Part shown: positions 38,971 through 53,848 of the stretch, piece after piece | Numbering within the stretch: position 1 is the first letter of the stretch | Layout: each line of letters starts with the position of its first letter | NCBI RefSeq assembly: GCF_006716425.1 | Contig: NZ_VFOZ01000002.1 | Location: 248,001-312,000, forward strand | Direction: 5' to 3' | Length of the DNA: 64,000 nucleotides | DNA from: Actinoallomurus bryophytorum | GTDB lineage: Bacteria > Actinomycetota > Actinomycetes > Streptosporangiales > Streptosporangiaceae | Made by a program: the position numbers and the translations under genes | Notes under the pieces: generated by a model | What the model was told of the DNA's origin: nothing | What the model saw: only the letters and a program-made list of their open reading frames with translations | Database searches by the model: none

Positions 38971-39108
38971 CGCGCAAGTATGGCCAGACGACCACGGCAC
39001 GCGTGTACTGAAAGTCTAGACTTTCGGCGAAAGAATCCCGGCTCAAGGCGCGGCCCGGCGAAGCCGTCTCCGTCGCGCGATATTCGTGATCGGCGGTGCT
39101 GAGCGTGG

Positions 39109-39114
39109 CACAAT
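39109..39114 (+). promoter_or_regulatory. Candidate -10 box of a leaderless hypF transcript
   Basis: CACAAT is seven bases upstream of the GTG at 39122 and no ribosome-binding site is seen. The 150-bp region between the divergent flavin oxidase gene and hypF (38971-39121) thus seems to carry two back-to-back promoters, each close to its start codon. Confidence 0.35.
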
Positions 39115-39121
39115 CCTCACC

Positions 39122-41389
39122 GTGCGCGTTCGCACCGAAGTGAGGGTCGAGGGCACCGTGCAGGGGGTCGGATTCCGGCCGTTCGTGCACGGTCTCGCGA
39201 CGGGCCTGGGGCTCGCCGGGCTGGTCGGAAACGACGCGGCCGGTGTCTTCATCGAGGTCGAAGGGGACGCGGGTACGGTCGAGCGGTTCCTGCGCGGGCT
39301 GCGGGAGCCGCCTCCCCTCGCGGTGATCGAGCGGATCAGCACCCGGTCGCTCGCACCGCACGGGCACGGTGGTTTCAGCATCGTCGGCAGCGAGGCGTCC
39401 GGGCGGCGGCGCACCCTGGTGTCCGCGGACTCCGCGACCTGCGCCGACTGCCTGCGCGAGCTGCGCGACCCGGCCGACCGGCGGTTCGGCTACCCGTTCG
39501 TCAACTGCACCAACTGCGGGCCGCGCTTCACGATCGTCACCGACGTGCCCTACGACCGGCCGAACACCACGATGGCCGGGTTCGCGATGTGCGCCGACTG
39601 TGCCGCCGAGTACCGCGATCCGGCCGACCGGCGATTCCACGCCCAGCCCGTGTGCTGCCCGGCCTGCGGCCCGCACGTGACGCTGAGGGACCCGGACGGG
39701 CGGGCGCTCCCCGGTGAGCCGATGGCCGCGGCGCGCGCCCTGCTGCGCGACGGTGGCGTCCTCGCGCTCAAGGGCCTGGGCGGCTACCACCTGGCCGCCA
39801 CCGCCGCCGACGGATCCGCGGTCGCGGCCCTGCGCTCCCGCAAGCACCGCGAGGACAAGCCGTTCGCGGTGATGACCGCGGACGTGCGCTCGGCGCGGAG
39901 CCTGGGCGAGGTCGGGCCGGCCGAGGAGGCGCTCCTGACGAGCGTGCGGCGGCCCATCGTCCTGCTGCGGCGGCTCGCGGACGCGCCGCTCGCCGCGGCC
40001 GTCGCGCCGGGGAACCGCTCCATCGGGGTGATGCTGCCCTACACGCCCCTGCACCACCTGCTGGCCGGCGAACCGCTGGTGCTCACCAGCGGCAATGTCT
40101 CCGACGAGCCGATCGCGTACCGCGACGAGGACGCCTTCGCCGCCCTGCGCGAGATCGCGGACGCCTTCCTCACCCACGACCGGCCGATCCACGTGCGCAC
40201 CGACGACTCGGTCACGAGGGTCTTCCGCGGGAGGGAGATGCCGCTGCGGCGCTCTCGCGGGTACGTGCCCGGACCCGTGCCCCTGCCCGCCGGCGGCCCT
40301 CCGGTGCTGGCCTGCGGGGCCGAGCTCAAGAACACCTTCTGCCTGGCGAAAGACGGGCGCGCGTTCGTCTCCCACCACATCGGGGATCTGGAGAACTACG
40401 AGACGCTTCGCGCCTACCGCGAGGGCATCGAGCACTTCGGGCGGCTCTTCGACATCACTCCGTCGCTGATCGCCCACGACCTGCACCCCGAATACCTCTC
40501 GACCAAGTACGCCCTCGAACAGGACCTGCCGCTGGTCGGGGTGCAGCACCACCACGCGCACATCGCCTCGTGCATGGCCGACAACGAGCGGACCGAGCCG
40601 GTCATCGGCGTCGCGTTCGACGGCACCGGGTACGGCACGGACGGCACGCTGTGGGGCGGTGAGTTCCTGGTCGCGGACCTCACCGGCTTCGAACGTGCCG
40701 GGCACCTGCGGCCGGTGCCGCTGCCGGGCGGCACGATGGCGATCAGGGAGCCCTGGCGGATGGCGGCCGCGCACGGCGTGCCCGCGGACCTGGACGTCGC
40801 CCGGCGCAACGCCGCGCGCTGGGACACCGTCGTGGCCATGGGCGACCGCGGGGTCGGCTCACCCCTGACCTCGAGCATGGGACGGCTCTTCGACGCGGTC
40901 GCCGCCCTGCTCGGCGTCCGCGACCGGGTCACCTACGAGGGACAGGCCGCGATCGAGCTCGAACAGCGCGCCGACCCACGCGTGGGCGACGCGTACCCGG
41001 TGCGTCTCGACGACGGGTCGCCGTTCACGGTCTCGGGCGCGGACCTGGTCGCCGCCGTCGTCGCGGACCTGCGCGCGGGCGTGGACGTCCCGTCGATCGC
41101 GGCGCGGTTCCACAACGCCGTCGCCGGCCTCGTCGTCGCCGGGGCGCTGCGCGTGCGCGAGACGACAGGCCTGACGACGGTCGCGCTGTCCGGCGGCGTG
41201 TTCCAGAACCTCCTGCTGCTGGAGCGCGCGGTGGCCGGCCTGGAGGCCGGCGGCTTCGGCGTGCTGGTCCACCACCGCGTGCCGCCGGGCGACGGCGGCA
41301 TCAGCCTGGGCCAGGCGGCGGTCGCCGCCGCCCGGCCCCATGGCGCGTCCGAGCCGGTCACGCGGGAGGCAGGTACGGACCCTCGGTGA
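39122..41389 (+). CDS. hypF: Hydrogenase maturation carbamoyltransferase HypF
   Basis: A 755-residue HypF that makes the thiocarboxamide on HypE, the source of the cyanide ligands of the [NiFe] centre. Domains in order: acylphosphatase (VEGTVQGVGFRPFVHGLA, residues 8-25), two zinc-finger pairs (CADC...CTNC and CADC...CPAC, about 100-180), a YrdC-like domain (LKGLGGYHLAATAADGS, 220 on) and a Kae1-like carbamoyltransferase domain (GVQHHHAHIASCMADN near 480; VALSGGVFQN near 690). It is encoded opposite to the rest of the hydrogenase genes; its 3' end overlaps the last gene of that operon by 32 nt on the other strand. Confidence 0.95.
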   Translation: MRVRTEVRVEGTVQGVGFRPFVHGLATGLGLAGLVGNDAAGVFIEVEGDAGTVERFLRGLREPPPLAVIERISTRSLAPHGHGGFSIVGSEASGRRRTLVSADSATCADCLRELRDPADRRFGYPFVNCTNCGPRFTIVTDVPYDRPNTTMAGFAMCADCAAEYRDPADRRFHAQPVCCPACGPHVTLRDPDGRALPGEPMAAARALLRDGGVLALKGLGGYHLAATAADGSAVAALRSRKHREDKPFAVMTADVRSARSLGEVGPAEEALLTSVRRPIVLLRRLADAPLAAAVAPGNRSIGVMLPYTPLHHLLAGEPLVLTSGNVSDEPIAYRDEDAFAALREIADAFLTHDRPIHVRTDDSVTRVFRGREMPLRRSRGYVPGPVPLPAGGPPVLACGAELKNTFCLAKDGRAFVSHHIGDLENYETLRAYREGIEHFGRLFDITPSLIAHDLHPEYLSTKYALEQDLPLVGVQHHHAHIASCMADNERTEPVIGVAFDGTGYGTDGTLWGGEFLVADLTGFERAGHLRPVPLPGGTMAIREPWRMAAAHGVPADLDVARRNAARWDTVVAMGDRGVGSPLTSSMGRLFDAVAALLGVRDRVTYEGQAAIELEQRADPRVGDAYPVRLDDGSPFTVSGADLVAAVVADLRAGVDVPSIAARFHNAVAGLVVAGALRVRETTGLTTVALSGGVFQNLLLLERAVAGLEAGGFGVLVHHRVPPGDGGISLGQAAVAAARPHGASEPVTREAGTDPR

Positions 41390-41675
41390 CGGAACCCTGC
41401 GGGTCGACGCCCGAGGAACCCTCGGGCTCGGTCTTACCGTACGGACGTCCGGAGGCACCCTGGGTGCCCTCGGTGGTCCTGCCCTCCTCGTCGCCGGAGT
41501 CGGCGATGTCCTCGGCGCTGCGCCGCTTGCTCTCCCCCGCGTCATCCGGCGGAGCGCCCTCGTCGGTGGTGCCGGCGGCGCTGGGGCCGACAAAGCCCTC
41601 TCCGTCTTCGGTCTCGTCCGGGCCCTCGAACGCCTTGTCGGCGCCCTGTACGGCCGGGTCCTCGGGGTCGCTCAT
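41358..41675 (-). CDS. Small acidic, probably disordered protein at the end of the hydrogenase operon
   Basis: A 105-residue protein with a very acidic, Gly/Ser/Pro-rich sequence (AFEGPDETEDGEGFVG, ADSGDEEGRTTEGTQG) and no Cys, His or hydrophobic segment. I recognise no family. The ATG is preceded by GAGGAG at a good distance and lies ten bases after the hypE stop, which supports it as a real gene of the operon. Its last 32 bases are antisense to the 3' end of hypF. The low complexity and the position leave some chance that it is a spurious frame. Confidence 0.55.
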   Translation of the reverse strand: MSDPEDPAVQGADKAFEGPDETEDGEGFVGPSAAGTTDEGAPPDDAGESKRRSAEDIADSGDEEGRTTEGTQGASGRPYGKTEPEGSSGVDPQGSVTEGPYLPPA

Positions 41676-41685
41676 GGTGTGCTCC

Positions 41686-42843
41686 TCAGCAGATGCGGGG
41701 AAGGGGGTCGCCGACCAGCAGGTCGACGATTCGGGTGCCGCCGAAGGCCGTCTTGAGCAGCACGAGCCCGGGCGGGTCGTCCTTGATCCTTCCGACGAGG
41801 GCGGCGCCGGCGCCCAGCGGATGCGAGCGCAGGGCGGCCAGCGCCTCGTCGGCCACGTCTCCGGACACGATCGCCACCATGCGGCCCTCGCAGGCGACGT
41901 ACAGCGGGTCGATGCCGAGCAGTTCGCACGCGCCGCGTACGTCGGGGCGTACCGGGAACGCGTCCTCCTCCACGACGACGGCGACGCCCGCGTCGGCGGC
42001 CACCTCGTTGAGGATCGTCGCCACGCCGCCTCGCGTCGCGTCGCGCATCCGGCGCACGCCCTCGCCACAGGCGTCCATCAGCGTCGCGACCAGGCCGTTC
42101 AACGGCGCGGTGTCCGAGGTCACGTCGGACTCGATGTCCAGCTCGCCCCGCGCCAGCATGACCGTCACGCCGTGCTCGCCGATCGGGCCGGAGACCAGGA
42201 TCGCGTCGCCGGGCCGCACCTCGCCGCCGAGCGGACGCCGGATCGCGCCGACTCCGGCGGTGTTGATGTAGCAGCCGTCGGCCTTGCCGCGCTGGACCAC
42301 CTTGGTGTCGCCGGTGACGATCTGCACGCCGGCGACCTCCGCCGCCACCCGCATCGACGCGACGATCCGCTTCAGGTCCGCGACCGGGAAGCCCTCCTCC
42401 AGGATGAACCCGGCCGACAGGTGCAGCGGCTCGGCACCGGAGACGGCCAGGTCGTTGACGGTGCCGTTGACGGCCAGGTCGCCGATGTCGCCGCCGGGAA
42501 AGAACAGCGGCGACACGACGTAGGAGTCGGTGGTGAACGCCAGCGAGGCGCCGTCGATGCTGAGCCGCGCGCCGTCGTCGAGGGGTTCGAGCAGCGGGTT
42601 GCGGAAGGCGTCGAGGAAGACCGCCTGGATCAGCGTCTGGGTGGCCTTGCCGCCCGCGCCGTGCGAGAGGGTGATGTTCTCCTCGCGCAGCCGCGGCCGG
42701 GCCCGCCGGGCGCGGTCGATGCGTTCGAGCACCTGCTCCTCGCGGGAGGCCATCTCGACGTGCGCGTGCTCGCGTACGGCGGCCTCGGCCCAGTCGGCGG
42801 ACCGCTCGGGCGCGGATCCCTCGATCACGGGTCGCTCAGCCAC
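41686..42843 (-). CDS. hypE: Hydrogenase maturation protein HypE
   Basis: A 385-residue HypE, the ATP-dependent dehydratase that turns the carbamoyl group on its C-terminal Cys into a thiocyanate. The C-terminus reads LPRIC, the modified cysteine. SHGAGGKATQTLI near residue 60, TTDSYVVSPLFFPGGDIGDLAVNGTVNDLAVSGAEP (in pieces) and RDATRGGVATILNE match the family. An N-terminal extension of about 45 residues precedes the conserved part. I kept the long form because its ATG overlaps the hypD stop by 8 nt, the usual coupling in this operon. Confidence 0.95.
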   Translation of the reverse strand: MAERPVIEGSAPERSADWAEAAVREHAHVEMASREEQVLERIDRARRARPRLREENITLSHGAGGKATQTLIQAVFLDAFRNPLLEPLDDGARLSIDGASLAFTTDSYVVSPLFFPGGDIGDLAVNGTVNDLAVSGAEPLHLSAGFILEEGFPVADLKRIVASMRVAAEVAGVQIVTGDTKVVQRGKADGCYINTAGVGAIRRPLGGEVRPGDAILVSGPIGEHGVTVMLARGELDIESDVTSDTAPLNGLVATLMDACGEGVRRMRDATRGGVATILNEVAADAGVAVVVEEDAFPVRPDVRGACELLGIDPLYVACEGRMVAIVSGDVADEALAALRSHPLGAGAALVGRIKDDPPGLVLLKTAFGGTRIVDLLVGDPLPRIC

Positions 42844-43963
42844 GGGTGGCCTCCTGGACCCGCTCGCGGGTGAACCGGCCGAAGTTGTAGTACGCCGCGC
42901 AGGCGCCCTCGGAGGAGACCATGCAGGTGCCGATGGGCGTCTCCGGGGTGCACGCGGTGCCGAACACCTTGCACTCCCAGGGTTTGAGCACGCCCTTGAG
43001 CACCTCGCCGCACTGGCAGGCCTTCGGGTCCGCGACCCGGCTGCCCGGGATCTCGAAGATCCGCTCGGCGTCGAACTCGGCGTACGCCTCGCGGACCCGC
43101 AGCGCCGAGTGGGAGATGAAACCCAGCCCGCGCCACTCGAAGTAGGGCCGCAGCTCCATCGTCTCGTTGATCACCTTGAGCGCCTTGAGGTTGCCGTCCC
43201 ACGGCACGACGCGCCCGTACTGGTTCTCCACCTCCGAGCGGCCCTCGGCGAGCTGCTGGAGCAGCATGTGGATCGAGGCCAGGATGTCCAGTGGCTCGAA
43301 CCCGGCCACGACGATCGGCTTGCCGTACTCCCCCGCGATGAAGTCGTACGGCCGGCAGCCGATCACCGTCGAGACGTGACCCGGGCCGATGAACCCGTCG
43401 AGGCGCAGGTCGGGTGAGTCCAGGATCGCCTTGATGGCCGGGATGATCGTCACGTGGTTGCAAAAGATCGAGAAGTTGGTCAGCCCCTCGGCCTTGGCCC
43501 GCAGTACGGTCATCGCCGTGGACGGCGCGGTGGTCTCGAAGCCGATCGCCATGAAGACGACCTTCTTGTCCGGGTTCTGCCGGGCGACCTTCAGCGCGTC
43601 GAGCGGTGAGTACACCATCCGGATGTCGGCGCCGGCCGCCTTGGAGTCGAAGAAGGACCCGCGCCCGCCGGGCACCCGCATCATGTCGCCGAAGGAGGTC
43701 ATGATGACGTCGTCCTGCTCGGCGATGTGGATCGTGTCGTCCACCCGGCCCATCGGGATCACGCAGACGGGGCAGCCCGGCCCGTGCACGAGCGTGACGT
43801 TCTCCGGGAGGTAGTCCTCCAGCCCGTGCTTGTAGATCGTGTGCGTGTGCCCGCCGCAGACCTCCATGAACTTGTACTGCCGGCCCGGCTCGCACAGGTT
43901 CGCGATGGAGGCGGCCAGTGCGCGTGCCTTCTCCGCGTCGCGGTACTCGTCGACGAAGCGCAT
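42836..43963 (-). CDS. hypD: Hydrogenase maturation protein HypD
   Basis: A 375-residue HypD, the iron-sulfur protein on which the Fe(CN)2CO unit is assembled together with HypC. Conserved parts are MEVCGGHTHTIYKHG (residues 32-46), HGPGCPVCVIP, IGFETTAPSTA, FIGPGHVSTVIG and the C-terminal cluster Cys residues in ACQCGEVL, WECKVFG and CMVSSEGACAAYY. The ATG at 43963 overlaps the last base of the hypC stop (TGATG); a GTG one codon earlier is equally possible. Confidence 0.96.
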   Translation of the reverse strand: MRFVDEYRDAEKARALAASIANLCEPGRQYKFMEVCGGHTHTIYKHGLEDYLPENVTLVHGPGCPVCVIPMGRVDDTIHIAEQDDVIMTSFGDMMRVPGGRGSFFDSKAAGADIRMVYSPLDALKVARQNPDKKVVFMAIGFETTAPSTAMTVLRAKAEGLTNFSIFCNHVTIIPAIKAILDSPDLRLDGFIGPGHVSTVIGCRPYDFIAGEYGKPIVVAGFEPLDILASIHMLLQQLAEGRSEVENQYGRVVPWDGNLKALKVINETMELRPYFEWRGLGFISHSALRVREAYAEFDAERIFEIPGSRVADPKACQCGEVLKGVLKPWECKVFGTACTPETPIGTCMVSSEGACAAYYNFGRFTRERVQEATRG

Positions 43964-44235
43964 CACTCGATCCTCGATTCCATCAGTGCCTCGATCTCGT
44001 CGGCGTAGGCCTGGCCGATCCCTTCGAGGAAGTCCATCGCCGCCTTGGCCTCGGCTTCGTCGATCTTGGAGAGGGCGAAGCCGACGTGGATGAGGATCCA
44101 GTCCCCCGGCTGCGGATTGTCTTCGGTGATCAGGCCGATGTTGATATTTCGCCGCACGCCGCTGATGTCGACCTTGGCGAGATCAGGTTGATCGGAAAGA
44201 ATCTCCACGATCTCCCCGGGTATTCCCAGGCACAT
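43963..44235 (-). CDS. hypC: Hydrogenase maturation chaperone HypC
   Basis: A 90-residue HypC/HupF chaperone that binds HypD and carries the iron unit to the large subunit. It has the essential N-terminus MCLGIPGEIVEI with Cys2, the middle KVDISGVRRNINIGLI and GDWILIHVGFALSKIDE. Its start lies inside the 3' end of hypA (53-nt overlap) and its stop overlaps the start of hypD. It is the classical HypC of the cluster; a second, unusual HypC-like gene lies at 51900. Confidence 0.96.
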   Translation of the reverse strand: MCLGIPGEIVEILSDQPDLAKVDISGVRRNINIGLITEDNPQPGDWILIHVGFALSKIDEAEAKAAMDFLEGIGQAYADEIEALMESRIE

Positions 44236-44575
44236 CCCGCGCCTCCGCTATCTCGATGGATTCCAGCACCAATTCGTCGCCGCCGGTCATCTGCACGTCA
44301 CCGTCTCCGCAGGCGGGACAGACGGCCAGCGGGTCGAGCGTGCCGGCCTCATGGCCGCACGAACGGCAGCTCAGCCGGGCCGGGGTTACGACCATGTCGA
44401 TGGCCGCGCCCTCGGCGATCGTGCCCTCGGTGACCATCTGGAACGCCAGGTCCATGGAGGGCTCGACGACACGCAGGAGCGCGCCGGCACGTATCTTCGC
44501 CCGGCGCACCGGACGCCCGGCGGCGCGCTTCTCGACCGCCTCGAGGATCGCCTCGGCGAGCCCGATCTCGTGCAC
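44183..44575 (-). CDS. hypA: Hydrogenase nickel-insertion protein HypA
   Basis: A 130-residue HypA. It begins MHEIGLAEAI, where His2 and Glu3 form the nickel site, and has the zinc site CRSCGH...CPACG around residues 70-90, then DELVLESIEI. The tail after that element (about 20 residues) is longer than usual and overlaps the hypC start. The usual partner GTPase HypB is not encoded anywhere in the window. Confidence 0.95.
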   Translation of the reverse strand: MHEIGLAEAILEAVEKRAAGRPVRRAKIRAGALLRVVEPSMDLAFQMVTEGTIAEGAAIDMVVTPARLSCRSCGHEAGTLDPLAVCPACGDGDVQMTGGDELVLESIEIAEARDVPGNTRGDRGDSFRST

Positions 44576-44576
44576 G

Positions 44577-45089
44577 TCAGCTCACCGTCCCCGGTACGCC
44601 CGTGGCCGTCTCGGTCTCCGGGGCCTGGGTTCTCGGACCATGGCGCTCCTCCTCGATGAGTTCGCGAACCACTTGAACGGCGGGCTCGATGGCGGCCGTG
44701 ACCGCCGGGCTGAGCTCTATCCCGGGCGAGATGTCCGCCGGCTCGCAGCCGACCAGCAGGACCCGCCGCATCTCGCCGCCGACCACCCCGACCAGGTCGA
44801 GTACGGCGTCGGGCGTCATCCCGTGCGCGTCGATGATGCCCGTGGGCTCGCCCTCCTCCAGCTCGAGGGTGTAGATCGTGCCGGGCGGCTCGCCGCGCGG
44901 CGTTGCGTCCACCAGGATCGTCACGTCATAGTCGGACAGCTCGTAGGCGAGATGGATGCCGCGGATGCCGAAGTCGCCGACGTCGACGTCGACGGGCAGT
45001 TCGATGTCGGCCAGCCGCCGGGCGACCTCGACGCCGAACCCGTCGTCGCCCAGGAAGACGTTCCCGACACCCGCGACCAGGATCTTCAC
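44577..45089 (-). CDS. Hydrogenase maturation endopeptidase (peptidase M52)
   Basis: A 170-residue protease that removes the C-terminal tail of the large subunit after nickel insertion. The M52 features are visible: GVGNVFLGDDGFGVEVARRL (residues 7-26) with the metal-binding acidic residue, DFGIRGIHLAYEL, and LVDAT with the second acid. Its start overlaps the stop of the upstream gene by 4 nt, and its stop is two bases before the hypA start. It presumably cuts HhyL after the His of its C-terminal CxxCxxH. Confidence 0.92.
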   Translation of the reverse strand: MKILVAGVGNVFLGDDGFGVEVARRLADIELPVDVDVGDFGIRGIHLAYELSDYDVTILVDATPRGEPPGTIYTLELEEGEPTGIIDAHGMTPDAVLDLVGVVGGEMRRVLLVGCEPADISPGIELSPAVTAAIEPAVQVVRELIEEERHGPRTQAPETETATGVPGTVS

Positions 45090-46330
45090 AGCGGCTCCAC
45101 GTCGTCTGGGGCGAAGTACCAGTAGCGGCCCTGCGCACGCCGCATGTCGGTGCCGGGGTCGTCGTCGATGGTCACGGCCAGGTGCTGTGAGCCGTCGACG
45201 TCGAACAGCACCGCCTCGACGGTGGCGACCCGGCCGGTGACGAACATGTCCTGCGCGTCGGCGCGCCCGGACGGCCGGAGAACCACCTTGCTGCCCTTGC
45301 CGACCTCATGCCCCGCGACCGTGATCCGGTCGGTCTCCGGCGAGACGGACGCATCGGCGCCAGGGTCCCACCAGGGTTCATCGGTGGTGAAGACCGGCAC
45401 CTCGTCCGGTCCGTTGTCCCAGCCGCGCCGTGGGCCGGGCGAGCGGATCGCGCCGTGCAGGCGGTCGAGCAGCTCGGGTGGCATCGCGTCGACCCGGTCG
45501 ATGATCTCGGCCGCGCGCGGGTCGGTGGCGCGCGCCTCGCGCTTCTCCTCGTCGGTCAGCGTCATGGTGCGCAGACTGAGGATCTCGTCGATCTCGGTCG
45601 CGTCGAACAGGTCGCCGGGGCTCTCCGGCGCGATCTGGGGCCGGTCCTCCAGGATGATCGGCGAGGACAGGACCACGTCGTCGTCGATCAGCACCGGCCA
45701 GGTGCGGAGGTTCTCGCAGCCGTCGACCGCGGGCCGGGCCCATTCGGGTGGGTCGACCAGGGACACGAACCTCCCGCCGGTGAGCGCGATCAGCGTGTGC
45801 GCGGCGACCAGGGAGTGCCGCAGCGCCTCGGGGCGCTCCTCTCCGGTCCACTCGCCGGTGTTCTCCAGCCGCAGCCGCAGCCGGACCACGCCGTACGGGC
45901 CGGGGATCTGCTCGGCGGCGGCGCGCACCCGGACGTGCAGGGGCTGCCAGGTACGGGTGACTCCGTCCACGGTCTCCCGCCCGCCCGGGATTCGGATGTC
46001 GCGGACCTGCTCGCCCTCCAGCAGCTCTTCCAGCCGCCAGACGTGGTCGATCTCGCGCTCGGCCGCTTCGTCGAACGGCTCGGCGCCTTCGGACGTGCGA
46101 GCCTGGACGTGCAGGAACCGGGAGCGCGCGTGCACGACCTCGCCGGCCTCGATCAGGCACTCGGTCTGGCAGGCGGACGGCTCTTCGGTCACTGTGAAGC
46201 CGGGCGGCACGAACACCCCGAACTGCCAGCGCACCTGGTTCTTCACCGCGCTGGCGCGGTACGGATAGAGCAGGTAGCCCTCGTACAGGACGGCGTCCGC
46301 GATCTTGCGCGCGGCCTCCAGATCCCTCAC
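45086..46330 (-). CDS. Hydrogenase-cluster protein of unknown function (414 residues)
   Basis: A soluble 414-residue protein that I do not recognise beyond its place in the operon. It starts RDLEAARKIADAVLYEGYLLYPYRASAVKN, followed by a central acidic part. The C-terminal domain of about 75 residues (GHEVGKGSKVVLRPSG, FVTGRVATVEAVLFDVDGSQHLAVTIDDDPG in pieces) could be a small beta-barrel. It has one CxxxC (ACQTEC) but no iron-sulfur motif. The GTG at 46330 overlaps the stop of the preceding gene (GTGA), which decides the start; longer in-frame alternatives would run into that gene. A role in maturation, assembly or electron transfer is inference from position. Confidence 0.85.
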   Translation of the reverse strand: MRDLEAARKIADAVLYEGYLLYPYRASAVKNQVRWQFGVFVPPGFTVTEEPSACQTECLIEAGEVVHARSRFLHVQARTSEGAEPFDEAAEREIDHVWRLEELLEGEQVRDIRIPGGRETVDGVTRTWQPLHVRVRAAAEQIPGPYGVVRLRLRLENTGEWTGEERPEALRHSLVAAHTLIALTGGRFVSLVDPPEWARPAVDGCENLRTWPVLIDDDVVLSSPIILEDRPQIAPESPGDLFDATEIDEILSLRTMTLTDEEKREARATDPRAAEIIDRVDAMPPELLDRLHGAIRSPGPRRGWDNGPDEVPVFTTDEPWWDPGADASVSPETDRITVAGHEVGKGSKVVLRPSGRADAQDMFVTGRVATVEAVLFDVDGSQHLAVTIDDDPGTDMRRAQGRYWYFAPDDVEPL

Positions 46331-46983
46331 GGCCGGGCCTCCTTGCCCTGCGTGAGTTTGGCCTGGGCGAGCAGGTCGGCGATGACGTCGTCCCAGCCTG
46401 CCAGCGCCTTCGCCGTCTTGTAGAGCATCAGCTCGGCGATGGTCGCGCGGCGCAGCCGCAGCCAGCCCGAGCCCGGGAAGAAGCGGTCCATCGCCTCCCG
46501 CCAGACGGCGACCGGCACGCGCTGCGGGGTCTCGCTGGTCCACGGGACCTGGTTGACGGTGAAGCCCGTCGGGGTCCGGACGAAGACGGTGCCACTGAAC
46601 AGCAGCAGCATTGGGATCTCGCCGTCCTCCAGCGAGGCGAAGTACTTGTTGGCCGCGACCTCCAGGTCATAGGAGCACGGCACGGGCAGGTCGACCTCGG
46701 TCTCGCCGGTGAACCCGGGCACCATCACCGCGACCGTGGCGTACTGCAGCGGTTTGAGGGTGTCGCCCCAGCGGTCGGGCGTGCCGAACAGGTCACCGAG
46801 CAGCGGCGTCTCGGCCTCGGAGTACTTGCGACGGTGCGGCTCGATCCGAAGCTGGCAGCGCAGCGCGATGGCGTTCACGGCGCGGCCGCCGGTCTCGGCG
46901 ATGCGCAGCCGGAAGACCAGCGTGGGCGAGGCTGCGTACGGGTCGGACCGTACGCCGAGGCACTCGAAAGTGAGATCAGCCAT
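46327..46983 (-). CDS. Hydrogenase-cluster protein, DUF6084-like
   Basis: A 218-residue protein without cysteine clusters, signal peptide or membrane segment. It opens with a beta-rich stretch (FECLGVRSDPYAASPTLVFRLRI), contains LLGDLFGTPDRWGDTLKPLQYATV near 80 and ends in a helical part. I believe this is the family called DUF6084, which travels with actinobacterial hydrogenases, but the name is from memory. Start and stop overlap both neighbours (8 and 4 nt). The structure suggests a scaffold or binding protein more than an enzyme. Confidence 0.82.
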   Translation of the reverse strand: MADLTFECLGVRSDPYAASPTLVFRLRIAETGGRAVNAIALRCQLRIEPHRRKYSEAETPLLGDLFGTPDRWGDTLKPLQYATVAVMVPGFTGETEVDLPVPCSYDLEVAANKYFASLEDGEIPMLLLFSGTVFVRTPTGFTVNQVPWTSETPQRVPVAVWREAMDRFFPGSGWLRLRRATIAELMLYKTAKALAGWDDVIADLLAQAKLTQGKEARP

Positions 46984-47671
46984 GCGCCTCCTCCCTGACC
47001 ACTCGCTCGCCGCGGTCGCGCAGGGCGGCGAAGAAGCCGTTGATCGCGTTCCACGCCTCCTCGCCCCCGTCGAAGCCCTTCCAGTACAGCCGGACCAGGC
47101 CGACGAGCTCGTAGCAGACGTCGATCGGCACGAGGTAGGCGCCGGACCTGCGGTCGATGAGGAGTGCCTCGACGTCGGGCTGGACGTCGGCGACGGCGGG
47201 GTTCGCGGCCAGTATCCGCACCCAGGCGTCCAGGGACAGCTCCGACTCGGTCGCCCCGGCCGGACTCGGATAGAACGCGACCGTGCGGCCCATGCCGGTG
47301 TTGCGGAAGAAGAACGCCATACGTACCGGAATGGCCAGCTCGTCCCAGTCGCCTTCGGACATCGCGAAGTCCGGGTCATAGCGGTAGCGCTCGGGTACCG
47401 CTTGGAACCGCCGTATCGGAGAGTCGGCGCCGTCCGTGGGGCGGCGTTCCGTGCCCGCGCCGGCATGGGTGAACAGCAGCATGCAGGGTCGGCAGGTGCA
47501 GAGGATATGCCGGTCCTCGAGGTTCGCGACGTGACCGTGCACCTCGCCGATCGGCTCGGCGCACATCTCGCACTTCTCGACGGGAGGCCCGGCGGGAGCC
47601 GGGGCGGGCTCGGTGGCCGCCCGCTCACGCTCGAACTGCTCCCGCCCCGCGGCGAACCGGCGCAGGCTCAC
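46976..47671 (-). CDS. Hydrogenase-cluster protein, DUF5947-like, with CxxC pairs
   Basis: A 231-residue protein with two Cys pairs in the N-terminal part, EKCEMCAEPI (about residue 33) and LCTCRPCMLLF (about 57-65), plus His residues between them, which look like a metal (zinc or iron-sulfur) site. The rest (RYRYDPDFAMSEGDWDELAIPVRMAFFF in pieces; GAYLVPIDVCYELVGLVRLYWKGFDGGEEAW in pieces) is conserved-looking. I think it is DUF5947, a family seen in hydrogenase clusters. GTG 47671 follows a strong GGAGGG. It could carry electrons or metals for the hydrogenase; no function is known to me. Confidence 0.84.
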   Translation of the reverse strand: MSLRRFAAGREQFERERAATEPAPAPAGPPVEKCEMCAEPIGEVHGHVANLEDRHILCTCRPCMLLFTHAGAGTERRPTDGADSPIRRFQAVPERYRYDPDFAMSEGDWDELAIPVRMAFFFRNTGMGRTVAFYPSPAGATESELSLDAWVRILAANPAVADVQPDVEALLIDRRSGAYLVPIDVCYELVGLVRLYWKGFDGGEEAWNAINGFFAALRDRGERVVREEAHG

Positions 47672-47708
47672 GTTCGTTCCCTCCTGTCGTCCGCGCTGCC
47701 GGAAAGAG

Positions 47709-48248
47709 TCACGACGAGACCTCCTCCGGCACCGCGCACTCCTTGCCCTGGTACGGGTGGATCTGCAGCAGCGTGGGTTCTGCCGCGACGCCCTCGACGA
47801 CGACCTCGGTGATCTCCGGAGCGTCCTCCAGGATGGCTCTCTCGATCGACATCGTGGCGGTGACCTGCGATGACGGGCACCCTGAACAGTTACCCTCCAG
47901 ACGGAGGCGTACAACCCCCGACAGGTCGATGCCCAGGAGCTCGACGCCGCCGGCGTGTGATCCGAGGTAGGGCCGGACCCGCTCGAGCGCACCACGGACG
48001 CGTTCGGCGGTGTTGAGCGGATGGATGTCGTGCACGATCAGCAGCGAGCCGACCAGGTTGTCGCCGGCGAGGGTGCGCGCCGTCTCGTCCCCGACCATCT
48101 CCAGGATCCGGGCCAGGCCTGCCCCGTACACCTCGATGAGCGCGGTGACCAGTTCCTCGGCCCGGTCGCGGTCGGCCGGGTCGTCGATCTCGGCGAGCAG
48201 CTGCTCCACGCGCGCGCCCGCGTCTTTTACGTCCTTGGATCCAGGCAT
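47709..48248 (-). CDS. NifU C-terminal domain protein (iron-sulfur scaffold)
   Basis: A 179-residue protein. The second half is a NifU C-terminal domain with the cluster-binding C-x2-C in GNCSGCPSS (residues 121-124). The first half is helical and has no NifU N-terminal (IscU) motif. Proteins of this type hold a [4Fe-4S] cluster and pass it on. In this place, just after the large subunit gene, it most likely delivers clusters to the small subunit, whose proximal site is unusual. The ATG at 48248 follows AAGGGG. Confidence 0.9.
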   Translation of the reverse strand: MPGSKDVKDAGARVEQLLAEIDDPADRDRAEELVTALIEVYGAGLARILEMVGDETARTLAGDNLVGSLLIVHDIHPLNTAERVRGALERVRPYLGSHAGGVELLGIDLSGVVRLRLEGNCSGCPSSQVTATMSIERAILEDAPEITEVVVEGVAAEPTLLQIHPYQGKECAVPEEVSS

Positions 48249-48285
48249 CGGCCAAGCCCCTTCCGGTCGGTCATGGTGCGGGCGG

Positions 48286-48323
48286 CTCCGCCGCGGCCCC
48301 GGCCCGGTGGGGCCGCGGCGGAG
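48286..48323 (-). terminator. Strong 15-bp hairpin between the large subunit gene and nifU
   Basis: CTCCGCCGCGGCCCC (48286-48300) and GGGGCCGCGGCGGAG (48309-48323) pair perfectly around an 8-base loop. It is the only large gap inside the operon (89 nt). Without a U-tract it may act as a leaky terminator or as an mRNA-stabilising end that raises the amount of structural message over accessory message. Confidence 0.6.
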
Positions 48324-48337
48324 TACCGGGGAGTGGC

Positions 48338-50113
48338 TCAGCCCTCGCCCGTGAAGGCGTGAGGAGAGTGGACCCGGTCGAGGGACTTACCGTTGCCCAT
48401 GTACATGTGCACGCCGCAGGGCAGGCACGGGTCGAAGCTGCGGACGGTGCGCATGATGTCGATCCCCTTGAAGTTCTCCGGGGAGTTCTCCTCGAAGATC
48501 GGGGTGTTCTGAACGGCGTCCTCGTAGGGCCCGGGTGTGCCGTACTCGTCCCGCACGCTGGCGTTCCATGGCGTGGGCGGGTAGGGGTGGTAGTTCGCGA
48601 TCTTGCCGCCCTTGATCACCATGTGGTGGGACAGCACGCCGCGTACGGCCTCGGTGAAGCCGACGCTGATCGCCTCGTCCGGGACCTTGAACGGCTCCCA
48701 CGTCTTGGTGTGGCCGGCCCGGATCTCGGCGAGCGCCTTCTCCACGAAGTACAGCGCCTGCGCGGCGGCGTACGCCTGGAAGTAGGTGCGGGCCCGGTTC
48801 CGTTCGATCGCGTTGGACAGCGGCTCCCCGTTCCACATGGGGATCTTCCACTCGAACGTCTTCTCCGGCGCTCCCATGGTCTTCGGCAGGTTGATCTCGA
48901 CGCTGTGCCCGGTCGCCCGGACGTACCCGGTGTCCACGAGTCCCGACAGCGCGGTGGACCACAGGCGCGCGAGCGGGCCGCCGCCGGTGTCGAGGGCCAG
49001 GTGGTCCTTGCCGTCGAACCAGCGCGGCGACATGACCCAGCTGTACTTGTCCTCGAAGTTGCGCTTACCGGGCTTGGGGATCGTGTGCTGGTTCCACGGG
49101 TGGTGGATGTCGACCGGGTTGCCGAGCGGGTCGTGGGTGACGAACTTGTCCTTGTCCGTCCAGTTCTCGTAGTACGAGCTGCCCAGCAGGATGCGAATGC
49201 CGAGGTTGATGTCGACAAGGTCGTTGGTGACGAGCCTCCCGTCGACGACGATGCCGGGGGTCACGAACATCTTCTTGCCCCAGGCGGCCATGTTCTTGTA
49301 CGTGAAGTCGCAGTGGTCCGGGTCGTTGAAGGAGCCCCAGCAGTTCAGCAGGACCCGCCGCTGCCCGACCGCCTGGTAGCCCGGCAGGGCCTCGTAGAAG
49401 AAGTCGAACAGGTCGTCGTGCATGGGCACGACCCGCTTCATGAACTCCACGTACCGCATCAGGCGGGTGAGGTAGTCCGTGAACAACTGGATGGTCGCGA
49501 CCGTGCCGACGCCGCCCGGGTAGAGCGTCGAGGGGTGCACGTGGCGCCCCTCCATCAGGCAGAACATCTCGCGGGTCGAGCGGCTGACCTGCAGAGCCTC
49601 GCGGTAGAACTCGCCCTCGAGCGGGTTCAGCGACTTCATGATGCCGGCGATGGTCTTGTAACCGTGGTCCTCCGCGTGCGGCGCCGGAGTGCGCTCGGCC
49701 AGGGCGAGCACGCCCGGGTTGGTCTCCCTGACCATCTTTTCGCAGTAGTCGACCCCTACCAGGTTCTCCTGGAAGATGTTGTGGTCGAACATGTATTCGG
49801 CGGCCTCGCCGAGGTTGATGATCCACTCAGCGAGGTGCGGTGGCCGGACGCCGTAGGCCATGTTCTGGGCGTAGACCGAGCACGTCGCGTGGTTGTCACC
49901 GCAGATCCCGCAGATGCGGCTCGTGATGAAGTGCGCGTCCCGCGGGTCCTTGCCCTTCATGAAGATGCTGTAGCCGCGGAACACCGATGAGGTGCTGTAG
50001 CAGTCCGCGACCGTGTTGTTGTTGAAGTCGACTTTGGCGTAGATCCCGAGGCTGCCCACGATGCGGGTGATCGGGTCCCACGCCATCTCGACGATGCCGT
50101 CTTGCGTTGCCAT
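48338..50113 (-). CDS. hhyL: [NiFe] hydrogenase large subunit, group 1h
   Basis: A 591-residue catalytic subunit that oxidises H2. The N-terminal nickel ligands are C68 and C71 (RICGICGDNHA) and the C-terminal ones C563 and C566 (DPCLPCGVH). A tail of 22 residues after that His should be removed by the M52 protease. The L0 segment reads DPITRIVGSLG: the Glu of the usual RIEGH is Val, a difference from many other groups. ATG 50113 follows GGAG at eight bases; a GTG at 50131 overlapping the small subunit stop is an alternative. Together with the small subunit it is assigned to the actinobacterial group 1h. Confidence 0.95.
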   Translation of the reverse strand: MATQDGIVEMAWDPITRIVGSLGIYAKVDFNNNTVADCYSTSSVFRGYSIFMKGKDPRDAHFITSRICGICGDNHATCSVYAQNMAYGVRPPHLAEWIINLGEAAEYMFDHNIFQENLVGVDYCEKMVRETNPGVLALAERTPAPHAEDHGYKTIAGIMKSLNPLEGEFYREALQVSRSTREMFCLMEGRHVHPSTLYPGGVGTVATIQLFTDYLTRLMRYVEFMKRVVPMHDDLFDFFYEALPGYQAVGQRRVLLNCWGSFNDPDHCDFTYKNMAAWGKKMFVTPGIVVDGRLVTNDLVDINLGIRILLGSSYYENWTDKDKFVTHDPLGNPVDIHHPWNQHTIPKPGKRNFEDKYSWVMSPRWFDGKDHLALDTGGGPLARLWSTALSGLVDTGYVRATGHSVEINLPKTMGAPEKTFEWKIPMWNGEPLSNAIERNRARTYFQAYAAAQALYFVEKALAEIRAGHTKTWEPFKVPDEAISVGFTEAVRGVLSHHMVIKGGKIANYHPYPPTPWNASVRDEYGTPGPYEDAVQNTPIFEENSPENFKGIDIMRTVRSFDPCLPCGVHMYMGNGKSLDRVHSPHAFTGEG

Positions 50114-50127
50114 CTGCGCGTCTCCGC

Positions 50128-51186
50128 TCACCAAGAGGATTTGTAGCCGGTGGCCAAATCACCCTTCTTGCGCCACTTGGGTTCCTTGTCGAGCTTCCTG
50201 GCGGTGATCCCGCGCAGAGCGCGGATCACCCCGCCGTACGCGCCGCTGGCCATCGAGGACACGCGTGCGCCTGGGGGTTCGTCCATGAAGGGCATGAACT
50301 TGTCCGGGAAACCCGGCATGGTGCAGCCGATGCAGATGCCGCCGACGTTCGGGCAGCCGCCGATGCCGTTGATCCAGCCGCGCTTGGGCACGTTGCACTT
50401 CACGACCGGGCCCCAGCAGCCGATCTTGACCAGGCACTTCGGGGAGCCGTACTCGGTCGCGAACTGGCCCTGCTCGTAGTAGCCCGCGCGGTCGCAGCCC
50501 TCGTGGACGGTCGCGCCGAACAGCCAGGTCGGCCGCAGCGCCTCGTCCAGCGGGATCATCGGCGCCTGCCCGGCGACCTGGTACAGCAGGTACAGGATCG
50601 TCTCGGACAGGTTGTCCGGCTGGATCGGGCAGCCCGGCACGTTGACGATCGGGAGCCCGGCCTTGGACTTGTAGTCCCAGCCGAGGTAGTCGGCCACGCC
50701 CATCGCGCCGGTCGGGTTGCCGGCCATGGCGTGGATGCCGCCGTACGTCGCGCAGGTGCCGACGGCGAGCACCGCGGTCGCCCTGGGCGCCAGGATGTCC
50801 AGCCATGCGCTGGTGGTACGGGGCTGGCCGGTCGCCGGGTCGTTGCCGAACCCGGACCAGTAGCCCTCTTCCTTGATCGACTCGTTCGGAATGGAGCCCT
50901 CGATGACCAGCACGAAGGGTTCGAGCTCGCCGCGTTCGGCCTTGTAGAACCATTCGATGAAGGTGTCGGCCCCCTTGTCGGGCCCGCACTCGAAGTCGAT
51001 CAGCGGCCAGTGCACAGCGATCTTGGGGAGACCCGGAAGGGCGCCGAGGGCGATCTCCTCGATACTCGGCTGCGTGGCCGCCGTCAGGGCGACCGAGTCG
51101 CCGTCGCAGCTGAGGCCCGCGTTGATCCAGAGGATGTGGACGACAGGTTCTTCCTGTGTGGTCTCCGACTCGGTCGGCGTCGTCAT
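50128..51186 (-). CDS. hhyS: [NiFe] hydrogenase small subunit, group 1h, with Asp at the proximal cluster
   Basis: A 352-residue iron-sulfur subunit. In place of the CxxC that starts the proximal-cluster site of most [NiFe] hydrogenases it has C27-D-G-D30 (NAGLSCDGDSVAL), as described for group 1h enzymes in which an Asp replaces one Cys ligand. Further ligands are visible in GTCATYGG, VPGCPIQ, HEGCDRAG, GCWGPVVKC and GGCPNVGGICIGCTMPGFPD. There is no Tat signal, and no C-terminal membrane anchor, so the enzyme is cytoplasmic. Its stop lies 15-18 bases before the large subunit start. Confidence 0.95.
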   Translation of the reverse strand: MTTPTESETTQEEPVVHILWINAGLSCDGDSVALTAATQPSIEEIALGALPGLPKIAVHWPLIDFECGPDKGADTFIEWFYKAERGELEPFVLVIEGSIPNESIKEEGYWSGFGNDPATGQPRTTSAWLDILAPRATAVLAVGTCATYGGIHAMAGNPTGAMGVADYLGWDYKSKAGLPIVNVPGCPIQPDNLSETILYLLYQVAGQAPMIPLDEALRPTWLFGATVHEGCDRAGYYEQGQFATEYGSPKCLVKIGCWGPVVKCNVPKRGWINGIGGCPNVGGICIGCTMPGFPDKFMPFMDEPPGARVSSMASGAYGGVIRALRGITARKLDKEPKWRKKGDLATGYKSSW

Positions 51187-51264
51187 GCCACGTTCACCAC
51201 CTTGGGGTAGGCGGTCGGGTTGGGGTGGCGTACGCGGCGGGGCCGCGTGCCATCGGGGTGCGCG

Positions 51265-51903
51265 TCAGAGCGCGTACTGGGTGAGCTCCCACAGGGCGTG
51301 GTAGACCGTGGTCTGGGCCTCCTGGATCCGGTGCACCGATGACGACGGCACCGTGAAGAGGTGATCGAGGCCCTCGATCTCGGCCATCTGCCCGCCCGTG
51401 TGTCCGGCCAGTCCGATCGTCAGCATTCCTCGACGCATCGCCTCCTCGAAAGCGCGGATCAGGTTGGCGGAGTTGCCACTCGTCGAAAGGCCCAGCGCGA
51501 TGTCGCCGGCGCGGCCGAACGCGCCGAGCTGACGGGCGAACACGACCTCGAAGCCGATGTCGTTGGACAGGGCGGTCATGACCGCGACGTCGGTGGTCAG
51601 CGCGAGCGCGGGCAGCGGGCGCGACTCCCCGCCGGGGTTGAGGAAGAGCGCGGCGACATCCTGCGCGTCGGTGGAGCTGCCGCCGTTGCCGAAGGTGAAC
51701 AGCCGTCCCCCGGCGCGGAAGGCCTCGGCCATCCGCTCCGCGCACTCGGTCAGCCGCGCGCCGTCGGCGGCGAGCACGCTCTCGCGGAGCGCGACGATCT
51801 CGTTCGCCTTCTCGGCGGTGGAGCGGCGCACCTCGTCCATGACGGACTCGAGGTCGGTGTCGCCGGAGTAGAGGAACGGGTAAAGCTCCCGCATTTCGCT
51901 CAT
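51265..51903 (-). CDS. SIS-domain protein of the GmhA type, copy 1
   Basis: A 212-residue SIS-domain protein related to sedoheptulose-7-phosphate isomerase GmhA. The sugar-phosphate loop FTFGNGGSSTDAQ is at residues 69-81 and GLSTSGNSANLI near 137. At the GmhA metal positions (H-x3-E after AQ) it has D82 and L86, while the late Q-x7-H is kept (Q194, H202). No other gene of heptose synthesis is present. Its ATG overlaps the stop of the HypC-like gene. It probably works with the second SIS protein at 52118. Confidence 0.88.
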   Translation of the reverse strand: MSEMRELYPFLYSGDTDLESVMDEVRRSTAEKANEIVALRESVLAADGARLTECAERMAEAFRAGGRLFTFGNGGSSTDAQDVAALFLNPGGESRPLPALALTTDVAVMTALSNDIGFEVVFARQLGAFGRAGDIALGLSTSGNSANLIRAFEEAMRRGMLTIGLAGHTGGQMAEIEGLDHLFTVPSSSVHRIQEAQTTVYHALWELTQYAL

Positions 51904-52121
51904 GGCGCAGGCACCAGCCCGATCGCCTCTTTGGCGTGGACGAGCACGGTGTCGCCGACCGCGGCGTCCACGAGCGCGACGCTGACCTCCTCCGTACGGC
52001 CGTCGCCGACATCGACGTCCGCGAGGTCGCCGTCGTGCAGGCGTACGACCCGCACCGCGACGGCCTCATCGGAGCAGGTGACGCAGTGGTCGCCTTCGCA
52101 GTGATTCAGGCCTGCGCTCAT
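51900..52121 (-). CDS. HypC-like mini-protein lacking the MC N-terminus
   Basis: A 73-residue protein whose second part follows the HypC pattern (VRVVRLHDGDLADVDVGDGRTEEVSVALVDAAVGDTVLVHAKEAIGLV, read in pieces). The N-terminus is not the obligatory MC[LI] of HypC: it reads MSAGLNHCEGDHCVTCSDE, with C8, C13 and C16 and two His, a possible metal site. It is sandwiched between the two SIS genes with ATGA overlaps on both sides. I infer an accessory chaperone or metal carrier specific to this hydrogenase type. Confidence 0.85.
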   Translation of the reverse strand: MSAGLNHCEGDHCVTCSDEAVAVRVVRLHDGDLADVDVGDGRTEEVSVALVDAAVGDTVLVHAKEAIGLVPAP

Positions 52122-52777
52122 GCGATCACTTCTGGAGCGAGCACACCCGGCTGTTCGAGGAACACATGGACCAGCTCCCACAGCACGTGGTAGGTCGTGA
52201 CGTGCACTTCCTTGACCACGCGCGGGTCGGCGGAGGGCACGATCACCTGATGGTCGGCCACCGCGGCACGGGCGACGTCGCCGCCGTCACCGCCGAGCAG
52301 CGCCACCGTCAGCAGGCCCAGGTCCTTGGCGGTCCGCAGGCCGCGCAGCACGCCGGCGCACCGGCCGTCGGGCGAGATGCCGAGCGCGATGTCGTCGGCC
52401 TCGGCGAAGTGGCGGAGCTGGTGGGCGAACACGTCGTCGAAGCCGGCCATCGCGCCGACACCGGTGAGGGTGGCGACGTCCCCGGTCAGCGACAGGGCGG
52501 GCAGGGCGCGCTTTCCGACGATCACCGGATGGACGAACTCGACCGCGATGTGCTGGGCGTCCGTGGCCGCACCGCCGTTGCCGAAGGTGAACAGCCGTCC
52601 GCCGCGGTGAAAGCGTTCGGAGATCGCGTGACAGGCCTGTGCGATCACGTCCGCGCTGTCCACCAGCGCTCGTCCGGGAGCCTGTCTCCGGGCGAAGACC
52701 TCATGTACGCGTCCCGCTGTCCGCTGCATTTGCGGACCACTTCCCTGGGTGAAATCGGAAGGGCTTGATAACGACAT
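52118..52777 (-). CDS. SIS-domain protein of the GmhA type, copy 2 (first gene of the hydrogenase operon)
   Basis: A 219-residue SIS-domain protein. The loop FTFGNGGAATDAQHIAVEF (residues 63-81) keeps the GmhA H76 and E80, but the late Gln position is K189 (KEVHVTTYH, H197). Copy 1 shows the opposite pattern. It opens the operon: a promoter candidate lies about 20 bases upstream. The ATG at 52777 has only a weak ribosome-binding site; an in-frame ATG at 52729 preceded by AGGGAAG is a good alternative and would remove 16 residues of low conservation. Confidence 0.86.
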   Translation of the reverse strand: MSLSSPSDFTQGSGPQMQRTAGRVHEVFARRQAPGRALVDSADVIAQACHAISERFHRGGRLFTFGNGGAATDAQHIAVEFVHPVIVGKRALPALSLTGDVATLTGVGAMAGFDDVFAHQLRHFAEADDIALGISPDGRCAGVLRGLRTAKDLGLLTVALLGGDGGDVARAAVADHQVIVPSADPRVVKEVHVTTYHVLWELVHVFLEQPGVLAPEVIA

Positions 52778-52795
52778 GTGACAGACGACTCACGG

Positions 52796-52824
52796 AACAT
52801 ACATCAGGGCCCCGTGGCGTACAA
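52796..52824 (-). promoter_or_regulatory. Candidate promoter of the hydrogenase operon
   Basis: On the minus strand TTGTAC (52824-52819) and TATGTT (52801-52796) are 17 bases apart. Transcription would start near 52789, just before the first SIS gene. This is the only gap of any size at the head of the operon. Confidence 0.5.
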
Positions 52825-53784: not shown

Positions 53785-53848
53785 GAACCCTCCTTCGTCG
53801 GAAGGGTGACCAGGGCGCCGGTTTCATCGATTCGCTCGCTGCGCTCGC

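Follow-up and report, generated by a model that had tools for sequence, protein, structure and literature searches.

How do group 1h [NiFe]-hydrogenases pass on their electrons, and how is the [NiFe] cofactor built in air in organisms without HypX? Both questions are touched by an operon of Actinoallomurus bryophytorum that lies on contig NZ_VFOZ01000002.1, within the stretch of 64,000 nucleotides analysed here (the window; positions 248,001 to 312,000). It is an operon of an already known kind, for the oxidation of trace H2, and it carries both accessory proteins recorded before without an assigned function and one module, SIS1-HypC2-SIS2, that appears to be undescribed and that links a GmhA-like enzyme, split into two proteins, to a paralogue of HypC. 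The primary sink in the hydrogen cycle is said to be the oxidation of trace H2 by soil bacteria (PMC6883350; this and all other papers cited by PMC number are represented by excerpts). Our preferred reading, to which we give a probability of roughly 55% on the strength of sequence comparisons, is that the operon combines a group 1h hydrogenase with two extra modules, and that SIS1, HypC2 and SIS2 would form one maturation complex with a composite active site.

Results

Two complementary SIS proteins flank a HypC paralogue

The module stands at the upstream end of the operon, where SIS1 (52118..52777), HypC2 (51900..52121; 73 residues from an ATG at 52121) and SIS2 (51265..51903) follow one another on the minus strand, HypC2 overlapping each flanking SIS gene by four bases. 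Both SIS proteins match the Pfam family SIS_2 (54.5 bits for SIS1, 72 bits for SIS2) through GmhA-like domains. By alignment and residue class, SIS1 retains the metal ligands His, Glu and His and has lost the phosphate-binding loop; SIS2, which also has an N-terminal LYPFL motif, is the reverse: its loop (STSGNS) is intact, as is the bridging Gln, and the His and Glu that bind the metal are gone. No single chain in the window carries the complete His/Glu/His/Gln set with its phosphate loop, which is divided between SIS1 and SIS2. HypC2 matches PF01455 (39.3 bits on a longer frame, against a cut-off of 28.5 bits). The N-terminal Met-Cys of HypC carries the Fe ligand group; HypC2 lacks it, and has instead a C-x4-C-x2-C-x-D motif and a conserved His. 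Across 50 HypC2 sequences, one Cys is present in all 50, the second in 49 and the third in 45, and the His, in the C-terminal half, is again invariant (50/50).

For comparison we used three sets of relatives, annotated with profiles built in this analysis: six plasmid clusters (Cupriavidus necator pHG1, Methylocystis parvus, M. intracellulare, Streptomyces fungicidicus, Kitasatospora and the unannotated cluster of S. cattleyicolor); the best 80 of 576 relatives in a genome-contig scan, mostly Streptomycetaceae and Streptosporangiaceae; and 38 of 45 match places from an evenly drawn sample of the phylum. A locus was counted as group 1h if its large subunit, HhyL, scored above 1000 with the HhyL profile. 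This gave 110 loci including the window, and the 98 with at least 1.5 kb upstream and at least 5.5 kb downstream of hhyL were used for counts. SIS domains were present at 56 loci, 54 of them actinobacterial; four more loci carry HypC2 without a SIS domain.

Classification of the 110 SIS domains by their residues reproduced the division seen in the window. In 53 the metal His and Glu are present and the phosphate loop is missing; of these, 51 also keep the second His and 22 the Gln. Another 53 have the phosphate loop and Gln without the His/Glu pair, two are odd pieces (L026, L027), and two are complete, these being the undivided SIS proteins of C. necator and Methylocystis, which keep all residues. 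A complementary pair, one domain of the SIS1 kind and one of the SIS2 kind, is found at 52 of the 54 actinobacterial loci; the two exceptions are a locus cut by the end of the stretch (L124) and one with a recognisable SIS1 tail of only 17 residues (L104). Among ordinary GmhA proteins of the same phylum, picked as controls from the lower SIS2-profile matches, 18/20 keep every residue. In an unrooted tree the hydrogenase-linked SIS domains are split from GmhA with support of 100/100, and SIS1 (100/100) and SIS2 (99/97) each form one group.

The zinc ligands of GmhA are H61, E65 and H183 from one monomer and Q175 from its neighbour (PMC5387315), a set given likewise in PMC5705639 and divided in the way seen between SIS1 and SIS2. 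Given that three ligands come from one chain and the Gln from the next, one site of a SIS1:SIS2 pair is expected to be complete and the other dead, and the complementary residue loss thus predicts a single composite site.

The three proteins are also joined genetically. Single-frame fusions link SIS1 to SIS2 at 23 loci, SIS1 to HypC2 at four (L102, L126, L136, L150) and HypC2 to SIS2 at one (L023); the L126 SIS1-HypC2 protein scores above both Pfam cut-offs. Three separate SIS1, HypC2 and SIS2 genes occur at 22 of the 56 loci. SIS or HypC2 genes sit among hypC, hypD, hypE and hypF in many lineages, in orders that include hypC-SIS1-HypC2-SIS2-hypD-hypE and hypF-hypC-HypC2-hypD-hypE followed by a fused SIS1-SIS2. 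One of these four hyp genes lies no more than 3 kb from a SIS gene at 34/56 loci, and none was seen in the stretch at 8/56.

The SIS module accompanies group 1h and sister-group hydrogenases

We surveyed 296 genomes of Actinomycetota, with Pseudomonadota represented by two of the plasmids. The HhyL profile matched at E<=1e-150 in 36 genomes, comprising 26 of group 1h (24 above 1000 bits, plus the partial genes of G064 and G220, assigned by score per residue) and 10 of a sister group. The SIS2 profile separated two populations, one at 257 bits or more (38 genomes) and one at 192 bits or less, made up of ordinary GmhA and SIS1. Defined in this way, the module is present in 28/36 genomes with a 1h-type or sister large subunit (20/26 of group 1h, 8/10 of the sister group) and in 10/260 others. 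Restricting the comparison to genomes with HypD, which is present in 35 of the 38 module-bearing genomes, leaves 26/33 with such an enzyme against 9/118 others. The Fisher tests on these counts ignore kinship. The module was found in all 11 named non-streptomycete actinobacteria searched, 10 of which had been chosen because their locus already showed it, and on the C. necator, Methylocystis and M. intracellulare plasmids.

In G186, of Mycobacteriaceae type, the Hhy locus is decayed (L136:4155-4900): what is left of hhyS and, judged by eye, of the gene for a 414-residue protein stands beside hyp and SIS genes, and no large subunit was found in the genome. G231 (2 contigs, 97% complete) has hypA, B, C, D, E and F, the SIS module and a protease at locus L138, with no [NiFe] large subunit found.

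A group 1h operon with a second conserved block

The preliminary description of this DNA had proposed a tightly packed group of 15 minus-strand genes with hypF facing them, and open reading frames and Pfam matches confirm that group in the order first described. The genes lie at 41358-52824, and 13/15 have a Pfam match above cut-off: SIS_2 and HupF_HypC twice each, the NiFe small and large subunits, NifU, DUF5947, DUF6084, HycI, HypA, HypD and AIRS/HypE. A search of the window proteins against Pfam returned no family for the 414-residue protein or for an acidic protein of 105 residues. By their coordinates, 8/14 junctions overlap and the remaining six are gaps of 1 to 89 bases. Such grouping is far beyond chance, and much the same order recurs in relatives.

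Downstream of SIS2 lie the two subunits, hhyS (50128..51186; PF14720 and PF01058) and hhyL (48338..50113, ATG at 50113; 591 residues; PF00374). HhyL is 71-82% identical to its six plasmid-borne homologues, with 76% identity to HofG of C. necator, and HofG (5aa5) is its sole solved relative in the PDB at E<=1e-60. The earlier assignment to group 1h is thus borne out: by sequence the enzyme is a group 1h [NiFe]-hydrogenase whose large subunit is closest to the actinobacterial type.

Four further genes follow, namely hhyE, encoding a short NifU-like protein of 179 residues (47709..48248; PF01106, alignment), a DUF5947 gene (46976..47671, GTG start at 47671; PF19372, 222.5 bits), a DUF6084 gene (46327..46983, ATG at 46983; PF19562, 298.8 bits) and the gene for the 414-residue protein (45086..46330, GTG at 46330). 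These are known accessory proteins of group 1h, and conserved hypothetical proteins specific to the group, with function unassigned, have already been reported (PMC5900883, PMC6776052). Among the 98 loci we found HhyS in 98, the NifU-like protein, DUF5947 and the 414-residue protein in 97 each, and DUF6084 in 94, as well as the protease in 94. HhyS, HhyL, NifU, DUF5947, DUF6084 and the 414-residue protein stand together on one strand at 91/98. The seven exceptions are three loci with the 414-residue gene ahead of hhyS and without DUF6084 (L013, L107, L112), one with NifU undetected (L065), two with the 414-residue gene on the opposite strand (L092, L094), and L097. The last is a second group 1h locus in the window's own genome (G000, C1:6305441-6307216), where the large subunit is accompanied by hhyS, a NifU-like gene and hypA; DUF5947, DUF6084, 414-residue and protease genes were not detected in its 19.9-kb stretch.

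DUF5947 occurs in 26 of the 296 genomes. It is present in 24 of the 26 genomes with group 1h matches (not in G078 or G220) and in none of the 10 sister-group genomes, and so tracks the 1h structural genes, in agreement with the 1h-specific hypothetical proteins published before (PMC5900883, PMC6776052). Two DUF5947 genomes have no HhyL match (G225, G306); in both the 1h block runs into a contig end, and in G306 the end of hhyL is still present.

The suggestion in the preliminary description that the unknown genes are co-conserved and fall outside the standard Hyp set has held up, and comparison of gene neighbourhoods did not show them missing from most other group 1h clusters, the block being present at 94-97 of 98 loci. 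Its further proposal of one dedicated module fares less well. The SIS part and the DUF5947 block differ in their distribution among genomes, so we reject a single module of all unknowns and recognise two.

The remaining genes of the operon are those of a maturation protease (44577..45089; PF01750, TIGR00072 above cut-off), hypA (44183..44575; PF01155), a canonical hypC with the N-terminus MCLGIP (43963..44235; PF01455, 88 bits), hypD (42836..43966; PF01924), hypE (41686..42843; PF00586/PF02769) and the acidic, low-complexity protein (41358..41675, ATG at 41675; 26 acidic and 7 basic residues), which tblastn, run with the low-complexity filter off, matched at E<=0.01 in 12 loci of L015-L134, several of these matches being weak. 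On the plus strand, opposite the operon, hypF (39086..41389; PF22521, PF17788, PF07503 and others) overlaps the 3' end of the acidic gene. Directly upstream of the operon and on its strand are genes for an extracytoplasmic function (ECF) sigma factor and an RskA-type anti-sigma factor (53071-54454), possibly regulators. No RNA families or tRNAs were found within the window. The host genome comprises 9.47 Mb in three contigs and is 95.78% complete. The plasmid-borne group 1h cluster of M. intracellulare is immediately followed by nuoA-G (L011:18862-25749).

Metal motifs and electron transfer

In M. smegmatis, H2 oxidation depends on HhyE, which has been proposed as the electron carrier, with a maturation role left open (PMC6883350). 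The same paper names MSMEG_2717, homologous to PHG067, as another electron-acceptor candidate, and from gene order we infer that both are the DUF5947 protein. What is new here is the contrast between the metal motifs of the two families, counted in related sequences picked by profile, among which a divergent copy could be missed. The CxxC motif of NifU is incomplete in 11/108 HhyE sequences: both Cys are gone in C. necator, and one is gone in ten others (Methylocystis, two Streptosporangium, five Streptomycetaceae and two other genomes). In DUF5947, by contrast, a CxxC-x7-HxH-x10-CxCxxC motif has five Cys and one His invariant in 104/104 sequences and the second His in 103/104.

Could HhyE nevertheless, rather than DUF5947, carry electrons from the hydrogenase to quinone? 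The proposal and the requirement in M. smegmatis speak for it, as does retention of the second NifU-motif Cys in 104/108 sequences, and the window copy has its CxxC (CSGC). Against it stand the 11 incomplete motifs, the maturation role that the M. smegmatis paper itself allows (PMC6883350), and the window HhyE, whose alignment shows no C-terminal CxxC pair, although forms lacking that pair are known (PMC6883350). We regard this role as rather unlikely. Because some HhyE sequences have an incomplete CxxC and the DUF5947 residues are invariant, a universal role for HhyE as cluster carrier via that motif is unlikely, and an indispensable metal site, either Fe-S or zinc, is more plausibly that of DUF5947. 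This shifts the search for the redox partner. DUF5947 is not a detached C-terminal part of HhyE: in M. intracellulare the NifU protein is long and DUF5947 still has a gene of its own.

In the 414-residue protein an N-terminal EGYxLYPYR segment is among the most conserved parts, and the first 40 residues of the single-chain model are of low confidence, with a mean predicted local distance difference test score (pLDDT) of 42-59 per ten residues. A segment so strongly conserved, yet of low confidence when modelled alone, suggests a docking segment. The C-terminal part resembles an SH3-like barrel (PetP; template modelling (TM) score 0.75 of target over 73 columns, E 0.01). A match to a DrmAB complex chain over most of the length was discarded, as it gave no real superposition (TM 0.28). 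The DUF6084 model is confident (pLDDT 92.1), mainly beta with a helical C-terminus, and its structure matches were weak throughout (TM-scores of 0.08-0.53 among the matches listed). Sequence searches of the PDB returned nothing significant for DUF5947 (best E 0.39), DUF6084 (0.54) or the 414-residue protein (0.047).

HypX and HypB

HypX is the formyl-CoA CO synthase of oxic maturation. It is absent from the window genome, where a search gave two matches of at most 29 bits, and it occurs in 6/296 genomes: three that have HhyL and belong to family f3, which we take to be Streptomycetaceae; G122, which has both HhyL and the SIS module; and two without HypD. HypX homologues of G086 and G271, 62% identical to that of Kitasatospora, are found with no HypD or HhyL-type match and perhaps have a non-hydrogenase job. 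Among the 36 genomes with a 1h-type or sister enzyme, 27 have the module alone, three HypX alone, one both and five neither. HypX is thus present in 1/28 module-bearing and 3/8 module-less genomes (p=0.028), and the three belong to one family. In the named genomes, HypX was found in 2/22 of the SIS-module lineages (G005, G009) and in 6/14 Streptomycetaceae, a set chosen to include 11 without HypX in the locus; the eight other Streptomycetaceae have neither HypX nor the module. No locus among those listed from relatives holds both. Strict exclusion of one by the other is not borne out, since both occur in G005, G009 and G122 and neither in other genomes. That hypX is not universal among high-affinity H2 oxidisers has been reported (PMC4767420).

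The whole window genome has no hypB above cut-off; the best match (66.5 bits) is presumably UreG. HypB is above cut-off in 24/62 genomes searched, 15/16 named Streptosporangiales-type genomes being without it, and several of the 62 have no HypB-like protein at E<=1e-8. Replacement of HypB by the SIS proteins is rejected, as C. necator, Methylocystis and Prauserella have both.

Discussion

To judge from their sequences, SIS1, HypC2 and SIS2 are probably one machine that takes part, in bacteria living in air, in building the metal centre of the enzyme. What we observe is gene context, fusions, a loss of residues that is complementary and a branch separate from GmhA; complex formation, catalysis and the step served are what we infer from them. 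The three proteins would form one physical complex acting on cofactor assembly at the HypC-HypD scaffold. Pairing of SIS1 with SIS2 would create one GmhA-like active site, with His, Glu and His from SIS1 and Gln and phosphate loop from SIS2, and HypC2, with Cys residues near the place of the HypC Met-Cys, may couple this enzyme to HypD/HypE. HhyE, DUF5947, DUF6084 and the 414-residue protein would be dedicated to the 1h enzyme itself, either assembling it or linking it to the respiratory chain, and the invariant Cys/His site of DUF5947 makes this protein the best candidate for a metal or redox centre. With the split SIS site and the fusions to a HypC paralogue, there is now a concrete candidate, open to testing, for a maturation step that has not been recognised before.

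Several observations weigh against this reading. At 14/56 loci, including the window, the SIS genes stand beside hhyS with the nearest hypC, D, E or F gene 6-8.5 kb away, beyond hhyS and the genes that follow it, and the residue counts treat related sequences as separate. The module is absent from all 14 named Streptomycetaceae genomes searched and from 8/36 genomes with a 1h-type or sister enzyme, so such enzymes can do without it. Conversely, no full [NiFe] large subunit was found in 8/10 module-bearing genomes without an HhyL match. Three of these eight are explained, by hydrogenase genes cut by contig ends (G225, G053) or a decayed Hhy locus (G186), and five are not (G209, G231, G247, G267, G295). 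The DUF5947 motif, for its part, may be a structural zinc site.

Other explanations of the SIS module have to be considered. For other O2-tolerant hydrogenases, HupF/HupK and HoxL/HoxV have a protective role, and SIS1-HypC2-SIS2 could similarly be a non-catalytic scaffold that shields the Fe(CN)2CO intermediate from oxygen. HypC2 belongs to the HypC family, and the module tracks 1h and sister uptake hydrogenases and not HypD generally. A review also mentions HypC paralogues that confer hydrogenase specificity, citing a paper on oxic maturation with HypC and HupK (PMC12134894). A pure scaffold would not be expected, however, to keep a full metal and phosphate site across two proteins at 52/54 loci, and we consider this possibility doubtful.

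A bolder idea concerns the CO ligand. The source of CO in anaerobes was called the most pressing gap in a 2025 review, with HypX as the oxic route (PMC12134894). SIS1-SIS2-HypC2 might be an oxygen-compatible CO source that replaces HypX: its composite metal site would convert a phosphosugar into an enediol and cleave this, perhaps with O2, and the CO set free would reach the HypC-HypD iron by way of HypC2. If true, this would be a second enzymatic route to the hydrogenase Fe-CO, in organisms without HypX. The anticorrelation of HypX and module fits replacement; as the independent lineages behind it are few, and both are missing from eight Streptomycetaceae, we offer the CO role only as a bold case, speculative and improbable. 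Least probable is that SIS1 and SIS2 are ordinary heptose isomerases, or neighbours with no relation to the hydrogenase: GmhA proteins are indeed their best solved relatives and the M. smegmatis counterpart is annotated gmhA (PMC5445863), but SIS1 (119.3 bits) and SIS2 (137.1 bits) fall far under the GmhA cut-off of TIGR00441 (209.45 bits), and the tree, the gap in SIS2-profile scores across the phylum and the HypC2 fusions all set them apart.

Among the search results examined from the open-access full-text literature, no description of SIS proteins as hydrogenase maturation factors was found. Traces of them are present there: gmhA is marked by an asterisk in a figure legend on acidobacterial 1h clusters (PMC5900883), a table of genes near [NiFe]-hydrogenases has a SIS-domain row (PMC12727194), and an expression table for M. 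smegmatis places gmhA (MSMEG_2706) by number between hypE (2705) and hypF (2711) (PMC5445863).

Comparison with known systems

The closest known systems are the group 1h operons themselves, Hhy of M. smegmatis and Streptomyces and AH of C. necator. HhyS, HhyL, HhyE, DUF5947, DUF6084, a protein of 400-480 residues and the protease come in a common order in the five annotated plasmid clusters. The window differs in having SIS1-HypC2-SIS2 upstream of hhyS, and its genome in having no hypX and no hypB above cut-off. HypX, found beside hhyS in many Streptomyces, is likewise an extra maturation factor of O2-tolerant hydrogenases, but the SIS module is unrelated to it in protein and few genomes have both. 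Like the HypC/HybG/HupF chaperones, HypC2 scores above the PF01455 cut-off and has a conserved His; unlike them, it has C-x4-C-x2-C-x-D in place of an N-terminal Met-Cys and is fused to SIS domains in some lineages. With GmhA the module shares the SIS_2 family, and the full residue set when SIS1 and SIS2 are taken together. Unlike GmhA, SIS1 and SIS2 are each degenerate but complementary, separate in the tree, and set among hydrogenase or hyp genes.

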